Source: a virus
DNA length: 37,186 nucleotides
IMG/VR virus record: IMGVR_UViG_3300045242_000191
Coordinates: 1 to 37,186 of that record
Strand: one strand, 5' to 3'
Under the pieces are notes generated by a model. The model saw only the letters and a list, made by a program, of their open reading frames with translations, ran no database searches and was not told the DNA's origin. Position 1 is the stretch's first letter; each line of letters starts with the position of its first letter. Positions 3,677 through 37,186 of the stretch are shown here, in pieces. The translations under genes were made by a program, and so were the position numbers.

Positions 3677-4576
3677 ATGGTGACCACACTGGCGACGCCG
3701 ACGTGGCAGGTGGGCGCGCAACAGTTCAACGTGCTCGACAACGCGGGGGTCACGTGGGGCGTCTCGTCGACCACCGGGTGGTATGACGGCGCTCCGGTCC
3801 GGGTGCGCACCACGCCACGCAGCCAGTCTGACGGGGACTACCGCTCCCGCTCCCGGTTCGGCGGCAAGACGATCACGCTGAACGGATGGGCCAAGGCCCC
3901 GAACGGCGCGCTGGCCGAGGCGGCGCGGTGGGCGCTGCTTGGCCTGATCGGCAACGATCAGATCCCGCTGGTGTGGATCAGCGACTACAGCGCGCGCTAC
4001 GCGCTGGTGGAGGTGTCGGACAAGTCCTACATCCCGCCGGCCGCCAACGGCGCCGAGTTCGATTTCACGCTCACCCTATTCCAGGCCGACCCACGGCGGT
4101 TCTGGTACGTGGCCGGTGTCGGCCTGGACACCCGCGTTTTCGGCCCTCAGCAGGCTCCCGGCGTATCGGGAGGCCTGGACTGGTCCACCGGCGGCGGGCT
4201 CAACTGGTCCACCGGCGGCGGGCTCAACTGGGGCACCACGGCGTCCACCGGCACCGTGACCGTGACCAACCCCGGCACCGCGCTGGCGTGGCCCACCTTC
4301 ACCCTGGCCGACGCGCTCACTAACCCCACGATCACCGACATCACCACCGGTTACCGGCTGACCTACACCGGCGCTCCCATGGTCGCCACTGAGCAGCTGG
4401 TGCTGAACAGCCTGAACAAGACCGTGCTGCGCAACGGCGGTGACCGAAGTCGGGAGCTGACCGTCCGTCAGTGGGAGGCCATCGCACCGGGGGCGACCGT
4501 CACCTACGCTCTGACCACCACGAATCCCGCCGACACCGGCAGCCTGGCCGTGTCCCTCACCCCATCGGATAGGTGA
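3677..4576 (+). CDS. Distal tail protein (Dit-like)
   Basis: A 299-aa protein, first gene after the tape measure, where siphoviruses encode the hub that joins tail tube and baseplate. The N-terminal ~150 residues carry Dit-like features (GWYDGAPVR; FGGKTITLNGWAKAP; a strand-rich segment ending in LTLFQADPRRFW). The middle has an 8-residue tandem repeat rich in Trp, Ser and Gly, then a Thr-rich beta domain. A GAGG-type site precedes ATG 3677. Assignment is from position and sequence character; a related minor tail protein is the alternative. Confidence 0.75.
   Translation: MVTTLATPTWQVGAQQFNVLDNAGVTWGVSSTTGWYDGAPVRVRTTPRSQSDGDYRSRSRFGGKTITLNGWAKAPNGALAEAARWALLGLIGNDQIPLVWISDYSARYALVEVSDKSYIPPAANGAEFDFTLTLFQADPRRFWYVAGVGLDTRVFGPQQAPGVSGGLDWSTGGGLNWSTGGGLNWGTTASTGTVTVTNPGTALAWPTFTLADALTNPTITDITTGYRLTYTGAPMVATEQLVLNSLNKTVLRNGGDRSRELTVRQWEAIAPGATVTYALTTTNPADTGSLAVSLTPSDR
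4175..4234 (+). repeat. 24-bp tandem repeat in the distal tail gene
   Basis: Two full 24-bp units (4175-4198, 4199-4222) and a partial third (4223-4234) encode copies of L(D/N)WSTGGG. The units differ at few positions, so the expansion is probably recent or kept by gene conversion. It may be a flexible or sugar-accepting spacer between the two domains of the Dit-like protein. Confidence 0.8.
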
Positions 4577-21570: not shown

Positions 21571-21749
21571 TGGTGTGGCAGACTGGCTCCGCCGCCCCTC
21601 ACGTGGAGTAGTGTCCGTTGGGCCCACAACGAAAGGCCCCGCCGGCTGACAACCAGCGGGGCACTGAATCGCCTGGAGAGCGAGTCCCGAGCCCGAAGCC
21701 GGCGGGTGAACCGGCGCAACCACAAACTCAGAGACCGGAGAAACATAGC
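21571..21749 (+). promoter_or_regulatory. Structured leader of the replicase gene
   Basis: About 180 nt with no gene before ATG 21750. It has a possible -10 (TAGTGT, 21608-21613), a 7-bp GC hairpin (21636-21642 with 21656-21662), and a second small hairpin (GCCGG/CCGGC near 21692-21709). GTG 21611 could start a 12-codon frame ending at 21649. Together these fit an attenuator-type leader. I could not match it to a known riboswitch. Confidence 0.4.
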
Positions 21750-24700
21750 ATGGCCGAACAGCCTGAGCAGGACGCCCGTCAGGCTCTTGACATCGCCCGC
21801 CGGCTAGCCGCCGCGGGCGTGCCGATCTTCTCGGCCCCGCCGGACCCATCGGTCAAGGTCGGATTCAAGCTGCCCTACCAGTGGCACCTGACCACGCCGG
21901 CCATGGCCGACGCCGAGATCGCGCTGTGGCAGCCCGGATGGGCGCTGTGCGCCGTCATGGGCCACGGTCTGGACCTGGTTGACGTCGACACCCGGTCCGG
22001 CGGCAGCTGGCCCGAGTTCCTGCCCGTCACGGCGGCGCTCGGCATCGCCGCCACGCCGAGCGGTGGGCTGCACGGTTTCGTGCCGAGCCTCGGCCTGCGC
22101 TCGCGTGACGCCATCCTGCCCGGCGTCGACTACAAGGGCGGCACGGGCAGCGACGGCCACGGCTTCGCGTTCATCGCGCCGACCGTGAAGCCGAGCAAGG
22201 TGACCGGGGAGCTGGCCGGGTACGCGTGGATCCAACCGCCAGCCATGCCTGTCGACCACGCGGACGCCGTGGCGCGCTGGCGGTCGCTTGAGCCCCTGCG
22301 GCTGCACATCGCGGCCGTACAGGCGTCCAGCCCCGCGGCCCGGCCGGCGCCGGCCGGCGACGTCTTCGCCGAGTTCTACGGCCAGCGCGAGGCGCAGAGC
22401 AGGCAGACCGCGGCCAGAGCCTGTGCCCGGGCGGTGGCCGAGGCGGCTGAGCCGGCGCAGCCCGGCGGGGGCTACCGCCTGCGGCTGATGAAAGCGGCCA
22501 TGACGCTGGGCGGCTACGTGGGCGCCGGCGCGCTGTCGGCGGACGTGGCCGAGCGGGAGCTGGCCGGCGCCGTCCGGCGGGCGTGGGGCACTGAGCCGGA
22601 CGCCGAAGACTTGCAGTGGATCGCGGACGGCCTACGCGACGGCGCCGCCCGGCCGTTCCACGTCTACGACGAACGCGCCGCCGATCCGCTGACCGGTCTG
22701 CCGCCAGCCGCGGCGCAGAGCCTGGAGCATGTCCGCCGGCACGGCGCGCTGCCCGAGGTGTTCGACCCGACCGATGCGGGGCTCAACGATCACCTGCTCG
22801 CGGAATCGGTGCTCGGCTTCCTGCACCCCAACATCCGGATGGACCCTGAGTCGGGCGCGTGGCTCACGCGCGGGCCCGAGCGCTGGCACGTGACCAAACG
22901 GGACGCGTCCGGTTGGATGATCACCGAGGTGGCCCCGCGTATGCCCGTCGGGGTGACGCCGGTGCCCAAGGACCCGGGTGAGCGGCTGCCCGAGCACTGG
23001 CAGGCCGCGCGCCGGGCGAAGTTCCACAGCTCCGGCTCGGCCAACGGCTCCGGCGGTGTCGAAAAGAAGATCAAGGCGCTGCTGGCCGTGGAAGGTCACC
23101 CCAACCACGTCAAGCTGTCCGAGCTGGACGCCGACCCGAAGGCGATGTGGGCCGGCGGTCAGCCGTGGGACTTGCGCACCGGCCAGCTGGCCGACATCGA
23201 CCCGCTGACGCCGCACACCCACACGGCCCGGTTCGCGCCGGTGGAAGGCCCCACGCCGTTGTGGGACGCGTTCACCGCGGCCGTGTGGCCGGACGCCGAG
23301 ATCAGGGAGTGGGCGTTGCGCGTGCTCGCGGTGTCGCTGACCGGGCACAGTCCGCGGATCATGCCCGTGCTCTGGGGTGACACCGGCGGCGGCAAGTCGC
23401 AGGTGATCACACTGCTGATCCACCTGCTCGGCACCTACGGGGAACAGGTGGACCAACGGCTGGTCGGCCGGAACGAGCCGCCCGGGCACGTGGTGGTGAA
23501 GCTGCGGGGGCTGCGGCTGGCCTACCTGGACGAGGCCGCTCCCGTCGACGTGGAGCGGGTGGAGCGGGTCAAGATGCTGACCGGCGGCGGCGGCGCGATG
23601 ACCGCGGACGCCAAATACCTGGACGCGGTGACGTGGGACCCCACCCACACCCTGATTCTGACGCAGAACCGGGCGCCCGAGCTGACCGACGACGCGCTGC
23701 GCAGCCGGGCCCGGGTCATCCCCTGCGACGGGAACCCGGAGCTGGTGGACCGGGCACGGGCGCCGCTCGGCGACATCAGCCGGGACCAGTTCACCAGCGA
23801 GTGGACGGCCGAGGCGCCCGGCGTGCTCGCGGCCATGATCCAACGTGCCGGGATCTGGCTGGCCGACCGCGCGACGCTGTCCCACAACCACACGCCGGCC
23901 AGCGTCACCGAGCTGGTGGAGACCACCGTCCGGGAACAGGACCCGATCGGCATGTGGATGGACGCCCGCACCGTGCCGGCCGATCCGGGCACGCTGTCCC
24001 GCGAGCTGCACGAGGACTTCGCGCTGTGGTTCAAGGCCAGCCCGGTGTTCGGCCGGCGCTCGGTCCCCGGCCCCGATCAGTTCGGCAAGCGCCTCACCAA
24101 GCTGGGCGTGGGGGCTACGCACAGTAGGGAAGGCAAGCGCCGGCACCTTCAGCTCACCAGCCCGTCCAATGGTTGGGTCATCCCACCTATGACGCCGCCG
24201 GCAGCCCCTGTGACGGGTGAGCGTGACGGGTGTGACGGGTCTGTGACGGGTCCGACGAAGCCACCCGTCACACAGAACCCGCAGGTGGGTACCGAAGTTG
24301 ATCTTCCCGTGACGGGTGTGACGGCTGATTCCCTAGTAAGTTCAAAAGTATGTTCTGTAACGGTTAAGAAAGAGTGTCGGGAAGAGTATGGCGAACACCC
24401 GTCACCCGTCACACCCGTCACCGAACCGGCTCCCACCTCGGCAAACCCGGGTGTGACGGGTAATAGCGACCCGTCACGGCCCGAGACGGCGCTGGCGGCG
24501 CCCGAGGGCAGCTCGGTAGCCCCCAGGCGCTCACGCTCCGCGACATCCGCTGCCGTGGCGAAGCGTGAGGCCAAGGAGCTGGCCAAGCTGGAGCTGATCG
24601 CCGAGCTGGCTGGCGAGATCCTGGAGCTGCCGGCGGTCGTCCGGCGCACGGCGCGCACGCCTCGGCACATCGACCACGTGCACGCGGGCCCGCTGCTGGC

Positions 24701-26471
24701 CGACGCCATCGTGAAGGCGAACGGCTGCCTGACGGTGGACGTGGAGAACACCAGCTACCCGATCGGGCACCCGGACCACGCCCTGCGGACGGTGCAGCTC
24801 GGCACCCGCGTGCTGGCCGTCGACTTCGACGCCACCTGCTCGGAATGCCGGGAGGTCGTCCGGCGCGCGCTGGCCAAGGCCACCACGCTGCACGCGCACA
24901 ACGCCGCCGCCGACCTGTCCGAGCTGGCCCATGCCCGACTCGGCGATCTGGCCGACATGTGGAGCCGGATGGACGACACCGTGATCCGGGCCAAGCTGGC
25001 CGATCCCACCAGCACCGGTGGCGCCCCGGGCCTCAAGGACGCCTCGGCCGCCGTGCTCGGCGAGGCGGCCATGAGCCCGGCAGCCGACGCCGCTCGTGAG
25101 GCCCTGTTCAAGACGGCCGGGTGGACGACCAACGTGGACCCCACCGACCCGGTGAGCCGGTCCGGCTGGCACCAGGTCGATCCCCGGTGCGCCACGATGA
25201 TCAGCTACGCCTGTGCCGACGTGCTGGACGGCGCGCTGCTGGCGCTGGACCTCCCGGCGCCCGATCCGGCCGTGCACGCCAGGGAGCGCGCCGTCCAGGT
25301 GATCGTGTCCCGGCCGGCGGCGCTCGGCTTCCCGCTCGACCGGGCGGCGGTGCTGGAGCAGAACGAGCTGCACGAGAACGCCGTGGAGACCCTGCACCGG
25401 CGCATCCAGTCCGAACTCGGCATCGACAACCCGGGCAGCCCCAAGCAGGTGGGTGAGCGGCTGCTCGCTCTGGGGGCTCAGTTGCCCGCCACGGCCACCG
25501 GCAAGCCCTCGGTGGCCAAGGACGTGCTTCAGACCATGGCAGGCGCGTGGGAGCTGCCTGACGGCTCGGAAGACGTCACCGCGCTGGAGCCGCACAACTT
25601 CGCCCAGCACGCGGCTCGGTTGGTGCTCGATTGGCGCAAGCACGACACCGTGCTGAAGCTGATCCTGCGTCCGTGGAAGATCGCCACCACCCACGGCGAC
25701 GGACGCATCCGGCCCACGGTCTACACGCTGGGAGCTGACACCGGGCGCATGAGCTGCGTCCGGCCCAACATGCAGCAGGTCAGCAAAAAGGGCGGCGTCC
25801 GCGAGTGCATCGCCGCCGACGACGGCATGTCGATCATCTCGGCGGACTTCGCCGGTGTTGAGCTGCGGGTGGCCGCGGCGCTGTCCGGGGACCGGATGCT
25901 GCGCCACGCCATCGACAACGGGCTCGACATCCACCGCATGATCGCCAGTCAGGTGTTCGGGGAGGACTACGCCGACGCCAACCGGACGCTGGCCAAACGG
26001 ATCGTGTTCGGCCGGGTCTATGGCGGCGGCATCCCCACCCTGGCCAAGCAGGCCGGTGTGCCGCAGTCCATCGCCGCCGCAGCCGTGGAGGTCATGGACT
26101 CGATCACGCCGGATCTCGCGGTGTGGTCCGAGCAGATCCGCAGTGGCATCCGGGCCGGCCACCGGCAGTTTCAGACCTACGCCGGCCGGGTCATCCACCT
26201 GGACCCCAAGCTTCCGCACAAGGGCCCGAACTACCTGATCCAGGGCACTGCCCGCGAGCTGCTGGTGGACGCGCTGCTGCGCTGGGAGCGCGGTCCGTGG
26301 GGCGGCGGCCTGGTGATGCCGGTGCACGACGAGGTGGTGGCCATGGTCCCCACGGCACAGGCCGACGACGCGCTGGCCCACCTGCTGGAGTGCATGACCC
26401 TGGAGCTCAACGGCATCCCCATCGCCGCCGAGGCGGGCGGCCCGCCGGCCCGCACCTGGCACAGCGGCTGA
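21750..26471 (+). CDS. Fused replicase: primase-polymerase, SF3 helicase, 3'-5' exonuclease and family A DNA polymerase
   Basis: A 1573-aa protein, the largest here. Residues ~1-190: bifunctional primase-polymerase, with DxD at 78/80 and SGGLHGF around His108. Residues ~480-700: SF3/D5-type helicase, Walker A GDTGGGKS (543-550), Walker B AYLDEA (D594, E595), sensor LTQN (N640). Residues ~820-910: low-complexity linker carrying the iterons. Residues ~985-1165: 3'-5' exonuclease with DVE (D997, E999), HNAAAD (D1055) and YACAD (Y1153, D1157), all intact. Residues ~1240-1573: polymerase with motif A DFAGVELRV (D1366), motif B R1412-K1416-F1420-YG, and motif C HDE (D1527). GGAG 9 nt before ATG 21750; the TTG 21618 extension is low complexity and rejected. 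Confidence 0.92.
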   Translation: MAEQPEQDARQALDIARRLAAAGVPIFSAPPDPSVKVGFKLPYQWHLTTPAMADAEIALWQPGWALCAVMGHGLDLVDVDTRSGGSWPEFLPVTAALGIAATPSGGLHGFVPSLGLRSRDAILPGVDYKGGTGSDGHGFAFIAPTVKPSKVTGELAGYAWIQPPAMPVDHADAVARWRSLEPLRLHIAAVQASSPAARPAPAGDVFAEFYGQREAQSRQTAARACARAVAEAAEPAQPGGGYRLRLMKAAMTLGGYVGAGALSADVAERELAGAVRRAWGTEPDAEDLQWIADGLRDGAARPFHVYDERAADPLTGLPPAAAQSLEHVRRHGALPEVFDPTDAGLNDHLLAESVLGFLHPNIRMDPESGAWLTRGPERWHVTKRDASGWMITEVAPRMPVGVTPVPKDPGERLPEHWQAARRAKFHSSGSANGSGGVEKKIKALLAVEGHPNHVKLSELDADPKAMWAGGQPWDLRTGQLADIDPLTPHTHTARFAPVEGPTPLWDAFTAAVWPDAEIREWALRVLAVSLTGHSPRIMPVLWGDTGGGKSQVITLLIHLLGTYGEQVDQRLVGRNEPPGHVVVKLRGLRLAYLDEAAPVDVERVERVKMLTGGGGAMTADAKYLDAVTWDPTHTLILTQNRAPELTDDALRSRARVIPCDGNPELVDRARAPLGDISRDQFTSEWTAEAPGVLAAMIQRAGIWLADRATLSHNHTPASVTELVETTVREQDPIGMWMDARTVPADPGTLSRELHEDFALWFKASPVFGRRSVPGPDQFGKRLTKLGVGATHSREGKRRHLQLTSPSNGWVIPPMTPPAAPVTGERDGCDGSVTGPTKPPVTQNPQVGTEVDLPVTGVTADSLVSSKVCSVTVKKECREEYGEHPSPVTPVTEPAPTSANPGVTGNSDPSRPETALAAPEGSSVAPRRSRSATSAAVAKREAKELAKLELIAELAGEILELPAVVRRTARTPRHIDHVHAGPLLADAIVKANGCLTVDVENTSYPIGHPDHALRTVQLGTRVLAVDFDATCSECREVVRRALAKATTLHAHNAAADLSELAHARLGDLADMWSRMDDTVIRAKLADPTSTGGAPGLKDASAAVLGEAAMSPAADAAREALFKTAGWTTNVDPTDPVSRSGWHQVDPRCATMISYACADVLDGALLALDLPAPDPAVHARERAVQVIVSRPAALGFPLDRAAVLEQNELHENAVETLHRRIQSELGIDNPGSPKQVGERLLALGAQLPATATGKPSVAKDVLQTMAGAWELPDGSEDVTALEPHNFAQHAARLVLDWRKHDTVLKLILRPWKIATTHGDGRIRPTVYTLGADTGRMSCVRPNMQQVSKKGGVRECIAADDGMSIISADFAGVELRVAAALSGDRMLRHAIDNGLDIHRMIASQVFGEDYADANRTLAKRIVFGRVYGGGIPTLAKQAGVPQSIAAAAVEVMDSITPDLAVWSEQIRSGIRAGHRQFQTYAGRVIHLDPKLPHKGPNYLIQGTARELLVDALLRWERGPWGGGLVMPVHDEVVAMVPTAQADDALAHLLECMTLELNGIPIAAEAGGPPARTWHSG
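24209..24477. repeat. Iteron array, candidate replication origin inside the replicase gene
   Basis: Exact 9-mer GTGACGGGT forward at 24210, 24223, 24232, 24243, 24309 and 24453; reverse (ACCCGTCAC) at 24263, 24397, 24404, 24413 and 24469. Near matches at 24318 and 24357. The copies flank an A+T-rich island (24327-24390, roughly 60% A+T by my count in a strongly GC-rich genome). They fall in several reading frames and both orientations, so peptide repetition does not explain them. The layout parallels lambda ori in gene O and the P4 iterons bound by the primase-helicase alpha. Confidence 0.75.
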
Positions 26472-36818: not shown

Positions 36819-37181
36819 ATGGCAACGAACAAGGCGACGCTCCGCAAGGCGGCCGAGTCCCCCGACCTGACCGACGTGCTGGACCTGGACGCCGAAGGGC
36901 GGCCGAGCCTGGACGACGACCGCGAGCCACTGTTCAAGCTCGGCGGCGTCGTCTACACAGTGCCCAAGCAGGTGTCCCCGGGCATCAGCCTGGAGTACCT
37001 GCGGCTGGCCGGGGTCGCCGGGGAGCAGACGGCGCTGATCTGGACCATGCAACGGCTCATCAGCGACGGTGGCTACCTGGCGCTGGTCCAGGACGCCGCA
37101 CTGACCGCCGCCGAGCTGGGCAAGCTCACTTCGGCCATCACCGCCAAGGTGGCCGAGGGGTTCCGACTCCCAAAAGCCTGA
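36819..37181 (+). CDS. Tail assembly chaperone G protein
   Basis: A 120-aa product: basic start (MATNKATLRKAAESPDLTDV), LDLDAEGRPSLDDDREPLFK, then a helical C-terminal half (ISLEYLRLAGVAGEQTALIW; TAAELGKLTSAITAKVAEGF). It ends at 37181, with slippery CCCAAAA at 37169-37175 equal to 110-116. A -1 slip continues, across the seam, into 116-415 for the GT form. ATG 36819 has AGAGGGAG upstream; an earlier GTG at 36774 lies inside the terminator and is rejected. Confidence 0.88.
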   Translation: MATNKATLRKAAESPDLTDVLDLDAEGRPSLDDDREPLFKLGGVVYTVPKQVSPGISLEYLRLAGVAGEQTALIWTMQRLISDGGYLALVQDAALTAAELGKLTSAITAKVAEGFRLPKA

Positions 37182-37186
37182 CGGAC
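37060..37186. repeat. Terminal redundancy, right copy
   Basis: Identical to bases 1-127; one of the two copies is to be removed when the circle is closed. Confidence 0.9.

Follow-up and report, generated by a model that had tools for sequence, protein, structure and literature searches.

The replicase gene and its domains

The window, meaning the whole 37,186-base stretch of viral DNA that was analysed, carries a single long open reading frame for a fused replicase. The features of this gene are as follows.

21618..26471, forward strand: fused primase-helicase-DNA polymerase A, single ORF (1617 aa when counted from TTG 21618; ATG 21750 is probably the conserved start)
21786..22247, forward strand: Prim-Pol-like (archaeo-eukaryotic primase) domain, residues ~57-210 (phrog_1156, relative L010)
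22830..23927, forward strand: D5_N and D5/SF3-type AAA+ helicase (PF08706, DUF5906)
23928..24167, forward strand: C-terminal winged helix, residues 771-850, proposed origin-binding domain (AlphaFold, structural alignment)
24120..24137, forward strand: wing codons H835 (24120-24122), R837 (24126-24128) and K840 (24135-24137), which covary with iteron bases 4, 1 and 5
24618..26432, forward strand: 3'-5' exonuclease / DNA polymerase A part (PF00476 at residues 1247-1605)

The helicase was modelled by AlphaFold with a pLDDT of 91, and its best Foldseek matches were viral D5-type PrimPol/helicases. The NCBIfam model TIGR01613 (P4 alpha-type primase/helicase) scored 77.6 bits with an E value of 7e-22, below its cut-off of 108.7. 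The match to phrog_1156, a DNA primase family, spans residues 50-838. No direct Pfam match was found for the primase domain of the window protein; PF09250 was matched by L010, a relative of its N-terminal stretch. An earlier sequence-only reading had placed helicase, primase and polymerase in this one protein. The helicase and the polymerase were matched directly, and primase activity is inferred only through relatives.

The N-terminal part differs between relatives. Window positions 21750-22367 are only about 25% identical to relatives with 64-67% helicase identity (compared: L072, L073, L071, L105), and by eye this primase part resembles that of the distant L105. The primase module seems to have been exchanged.

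The window begins and ends with a direct terminal repeat of 127 bp (1-127 identical to 37060-37186) and contains tape measure, terminase and portal genes. Therefore, it is probably a complete, circularly assembled siphophage genome of about 37,059 bp.

An iteron array within the coding sequence

Short iterons lie directly downstream of the helicase coding part, with the array starting 43 bp past the codon for residue 850. Its elements are as follows.

24210..24251, forward strand: four forward iterons GTGACGGGT (starts 24210, 24223, 24232, 24243; exact match count)
24263..24271, reverse strand: reverse iteron; distance to the fourth forward copy 20 bp
24280..24286, forward strand: CGCAGGT element, after the reverse copy and before the tandem pair (CAG[GC]T in 29/34 module-bearing relatives)
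24309..24326, forward strand: tandem forward iteron pair (24309 exact, 24318 one mismatch)
24326..24389, no strand: A+T-rich island, proposed DNA-unwinding element (AT content, window-wide)
24397..24421, reverse strand: three reverse iterons (24397, 24404, 24413; exact match count)
24453..24477, both strands: outer convergent pair, forward 24453-24461 and reverse 24469-24477 (exact match count)

All 11 exact copies of GTGACGGGT, six forward and five reverse, fall within 24210-24477, and none occurs elsewhere in the window. For the whole window 0.6 copies are expected, and 11 were reached in none of 100 shuffles. Since the record is probably a complete genome, the absence of the 9-mer outside the array is probably genome-wide. 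There are also near copies, one with a single mismatch (24318) and three with two mismatches. The island at 24326-24389 has 62.5% AT, compared with 31% for the genome; it is the most A+T-rich 64-bp window of the entire sequence, and inward-facing groups of iterons flank it. The eleven exact copies in 269 bp and the A+T-rich island of about 64 bp described in the sequence-only reading were thereby confirmed by a window-wide count, and its two near matches were roughly right. That reading would have been refuted by equal frequency of the 9-mer elsewhere, which was not the case. Its proposed check by cumulative GC skew was run and was uninformative, giving no clear origin signal for the window. 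An Rfam search returned no match.

Conservation of the array among fused replicases

Protein searches revealed dozens of fused primase-helicase-PolA replicases, and in most of them the same linker contains a repeat array. The family was reduced to 61 non-redundant helicases. In the first relative found (L006/L007, 74% identity), the same linker holds other repeats, GTKRCGGAT, in the same layout. A DNA search with the tandem 18-mer matched 54 viral contigs, eight of which are fused replicases; these are about 36-53% identical in the aligned parts and have 8-11 exact copies near the match.

The geometry is conserved more strictly than the letters. A forward-reverse-forward module was found in 34 of the 43 members with a usable motif and was absent in full form from the other nine. 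Its inverted copies (forward-reverse) are 18-20 bp apart in 34/34 and exactly 19 bp apart in 27/34. The next forward copy, mostly a tandem pair, follows 46-51 bp on in 32/34, and reverse copies lie 76-111 bp further in 32/34. The module finder tolerated 15-22 bp and 40-62 bp, ranges wider than those observed; therefore, the clustering at 19 and 48-50 bp was not imposed by the search. The 9-mer itself varies among phages and includes GTGACGGGT, GTGACGGAT, ATGACGGGT, CTGACGGGT, GTGAAGGGT and GTGGAGGGT, as well as CTGGAGGGT, GTGCAGGGG, CAGGCGGGT, CAGGACAGT and others.

In many relatives (L089, L068, L114 and others), a CA/TG-rich alternating stretch replaces the A+T-rich island between the tandem pair and the reverse copies. 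The island, which held for the window, is not general in the family, and opening may possibly work differently between relatives.

Other searches were less productive. A blastn search with the array against phages and plasmids gave only weak matches, none in a replication context. Scans of genome contigs for relatives found none, and in the cultured phage collection no phage had a single place covering 80% of the fused query.

The repeats are not a product of the protein code

One explanation would be that the repeats are a by-product of a linker built from V-T-G or D-G repeats, like those of collagen-like phage fibres. In its favour, contigs with collagen-like fibres (L022, L026, L049, L069) were among the 18-mer matches. 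Against it, the array uses both strands and four frame and orientation classes, encoding VTG, xDG, PVT and xPS. When synonymous codons were permuted within the linker, no more than 6 copies arose in any of 20,000 trials, against the 11 real ones, and codons drawn from the gene's own usage gave at most 3 copies of GTGACGGGT in the linker. Among the fused relatives, 37 of 49 linkers have more copies of one 9-mer than all 500 codon permutations; the remaining 12 do not exceed this null. Moreover, linker peptide identity to the nearest relatives is 23-39%, compared with 56-87% for the polymerase, the helicase and the winged helix, so that the repeats persist while the peptide diverges, and the same array occurs in non-coding DNA. 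Repeats made by the protein sequence were thus rejected on the basis of codon permutation and the use of both strands and several frames, and this explanation is virtually excluded.

These results bear out two further claims of the sequence-only reading, namely that selection acts on DNA and that protein constraint is weak in the linker. Relatives that kept the peptide and lost the repeats would have spoken against it; the opposite was seen, with the peptide lost, the layout kept and the 9-mer changed. TGA-containing 9-mers were found in the stop-giving frame in 0 of 107 cases. This is because the ORF is open, and it was given no weight as evidence of origin function.

The four fibre contigs are a separate case. 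Their VTG-repeat genes hold the tandem 18-mer by coding coincidence and are a trap for motif-only searches.

Arrays downstream of unfused helicase genes

A DNA search by geometry alone, with 18 fixed bases and the two variable central bases left open, returned 35 contigs. In the non-fused hits examined, the array starts 22-28 nt past the stop codon of a separate D5-type primase-helicase gene. Its 9-mer is GTGTTGGGT in Pseudomonas phages and GTGCAGGGT or GTGTAGGGT in others. In the cultured Pseudomonas phage Meadow, the array occupies the intergenic stretch after the primase gene; the automated array finder skips two-letter 9-mers, and this array was recognised by reading the sequence directly. 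The GTGTTGGGT array is probably an unannotated origin in cultured Pseudomonas phages. No comparable array was seen at this place in Cen1621 and five other cultured phages, whose primase and polymerase genes are separate.

The GTGTTGGGT array follows a bifunctional primase gene with the same geometry in L136, L115, L118, L129, L209 (Meadow) and L210 (Lodos), the sequence having been read in L136 and L209. In L045, at about 1400-1900 on the reverse strand, ten copies of GTGACGGGT seem to lie across the boundary between a separate primase-like gene, at its 3' end, and the adjoining non-coding stretch; this contig could be an intermediate between outside and inside arrays.

Covariation between the winged helix and the iterons

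AlphaFold placed a winged helix directly after the helicase (pLDDT 91). When this domain alone was aligned with VIA-align, it matched the P4 origin-binding domain (1ka8, Z 8.3 over 77 residues) and the RFX-DBD (1dp7, Z 7.5). Fold scores at this level are not decisive, as other winged helices reach Z 7.5-8.6.

More specific evidence came from covariation. The scan took in about 450 residues of the helicase and winged helix, and the three highest mutual-information excesses among 1,017 residue-base pairs were residue 837 with base 1, residue 835 with base 4 and residue 840 with base 5, all in the wing hairpin. Arg or Lys at 837 occurs with G1 in 23/23, Glu with C1 (3) and Met with A1 (3). H835 occurs with A4 in 20/20, K840 with C5 in 19/20 and N840 with A5 in 11/11. 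Arg-G, Lys-G (on the opposite strand) and Asn-A are usual base-reading chemistry, and several of the wing pairings fit it. In a tree from which the winged helix had been left out, no independent pair changed in the wrong direction; the median p was 0.016 for H835, 0.0625 for K840, 0.0625 for R/K837 and 0.125 for N840, a test of low power. The cleanest case is the close pair L114/L119, in which the AAA+ part differs at 13 of 371 columns and the wing at 8 of 24, including H835R and K840N. Between these two, the array changes from GTGACGGGT to GTGGAGGGT/GTGCAGGGT, that is, GTG(G/C)AGGGT. Residue 840 can also be W, V, R or H, and L074 has K840 with A at base 5 (register uncertain); therefore, the wing code is incomplete. 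The covariation itself is clear, and it supports recognition of the array by the replicase through its wing; binding is inferred, there being no binding data.

A first covariation run had also produced residue pairs with high z and low mutual information. These came from a few distant sequences, disappeared when only the fused family was used, and were rejected.

Proposed function of the array

The 269-bp array is most likely an iteron replication origin that lies inside the replicase gene and is read by the gene's own product. The claim of an origin within the replicase coding sequence is supported to this extent; DNA binding, origin activity and the start of replication there are inferred, and no experiment has been done. 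In the proposed mechanism, the winged helix after the D5-type helicase would bind the 9-bp iterons, with wing residues 837, 835 and 840 reading bases 1, 4 and 5. Protein on the inward-facing groups would assemble helicase rings on either side of the A+T-rich island and open it, and the fused primase and polymerase domains would then begin synthesis. The melting, ring-loading and initiation steps are inferred by analogy with SaPI, SCC and P4.

An alternative is that the array is a site for the replicase mainly in regulation (autorepression or copy-number handcuffing) or in DNA organisation, and that replication starts elsewhere. Covariation demonstrates recognition and not initiation, and plasmid iterons serve control as well. 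However, no promoter-like site was seen in 24050-24650, and a position deep within a 4.9-kb ORF would suit an operator poorly. In addition, the arrangement looks like that of an origin, with the genome's most AT-rich stretch enclosed by two groups of iterons that face inwards. Homologous arrays also come after helicase genes, which is the position seen in SaPIs and SCC. We consider this alternative unlikely. Less likely still is the binding of another factor, such as a ParB-like partition protein, a recombinase or a host protein, to an array that neighbours the helicase merely through gene order. In its favour, binding data exist for no protein. Against it, the strongest covariation falls on three neighbouring wing residues of the replicase itself, in a domain whose fold resembles, though not decisively, the P4 origin-binding domain.

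With the origin reading preferred, the simplest history starts from an ancestral array located 22-28 nt past the end of a helicase gene that was still separate. When this gene was fused to one for a polymerase, the array would have come to lie in coding sequence. It would have survived there since nearly any peptide sequence can be accommodated in the linker. This order of events and the direction of change are inferred. A bolder reading, which we would neither press nor dismiss, is that one 4.9-kb ORF amounts to an almost complete replicon, with the origin as well as initiator, helicase, primase and polymerase contained in it, and that a three-residue wing code switches origin specificity while all iterons of the array change together.

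Relation to known systems

The helicases SaPI Rep and SCC Cch2 bind iterons just downstream of their own genes through a C-terminal domain (PMC7581432). These self-loading helicases resemble the window protein in being of the D5 type (D5_N and AAA+ are present here) and in having an origin, in the window a proposed one, directly downstream of the helicase coding part. Their origin is intergenic, whereas the window array is in coding sequence (ORF to 26471) of a protein that also contains polymerase A. C-terminal iteron binding by the window protein, as in SaPI and SCC, is inferred, with indirect support from covariation. Phage P4 alpha and its origin (PMC4234260; 1ka8) combine a primase-helicase with a C-terminal winged helix on origin repeats, a domain to which the winged helix of the window protein has a fold match that is not decisive (Z 8.3). 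The P4 primase is of the bacterial type and that of the window of the Prim-Pol type, the iteron is different, and only in the window is the proposed origin inside the gene and a polymerase fused. In lambda (PMC6022878), iterons and an AT-rich region lie inside the coding sequence of the initiator, gene O, as they do in the window. However, O has no helicase, primase or polymerase and relies on P and host DnaB, whereas the window has its own D5-type helicase in the same chain. The sequence-only reading had named lambda and P4 as the closest principles, which held in part: the nearest are SaPI Rep, SCC Cch2 and the P4 origin-binding domain, and lambda is a precedent only for an origin within a gene.

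Two further systems are comparable. The pRN1 ORF904 replicon (PMC4234260) has a Prim-Pol/helicase initiator with an essential origin sequence just downstream of its gene, but that origin is a stem-loop, not iterons, and no polymerase is fused. In the Pseudomonas phages Meadow and Lodos, a GTGTTGGGT array of the same geometry starts 27 nt past the stop of the bifunctional primase gene; in contrast to the window, the array there is non-coding and the genes are separate, and no published origin work was found.

An origin in an initiator gene (lambda, PMC6022878) and iteron origins adjoining D5-type helicases (SaPI, SCC) were already known. The open-access literature searched (subscription journals were outside the scope) yielded no description of origins for fused phage primase-helicase-PolA replicases. 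As far as these searches reach, three things are new: the placement of a probable origin in a gene that fuses primase, helicase and polymerase, the strict geometry that it keeps in dozens of phages, and the correspondence between wing residues and bases. Provided that the array is an origin, it is a clear case of DNA serving as both protein code and replication origin, conserved in dozens of phages. The wing-residue/base correspondence would make initiator-origin specificity predictable from sequence and testable by single-residue swaps. For work in actinobacteria, a replicon of only one gene would be a compact tool. In phages and plasmids not yet characterised, the geometry pattern gives a means to locate origins that follow D5-type helicase genes.

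Repeats were also observed beyond the phages described above. Distant unfused D5-type helicases in L206, L204 and L120 have GTGACCGGT, GTAGACAGT and GTGTAGGGT arrays past the stop codon. Downstream of a P4-family primase gene in a Streptomyces plasmid (L207), a short inverted array GTGGAGGGT/GTGGTGGGT surrounds a less GC-rich stretch, about 80-170 bp past the stop at 4042. In a Streptomyces erythrochromogenes plasmid (L208), twelve exact copies of CGAAGGACC, frequently at a spacing of 11 bp, lie downstream of a P4-family primase gene; they begin about 106 bp past the stop at 3952 and look like a plasmid iteron origin.
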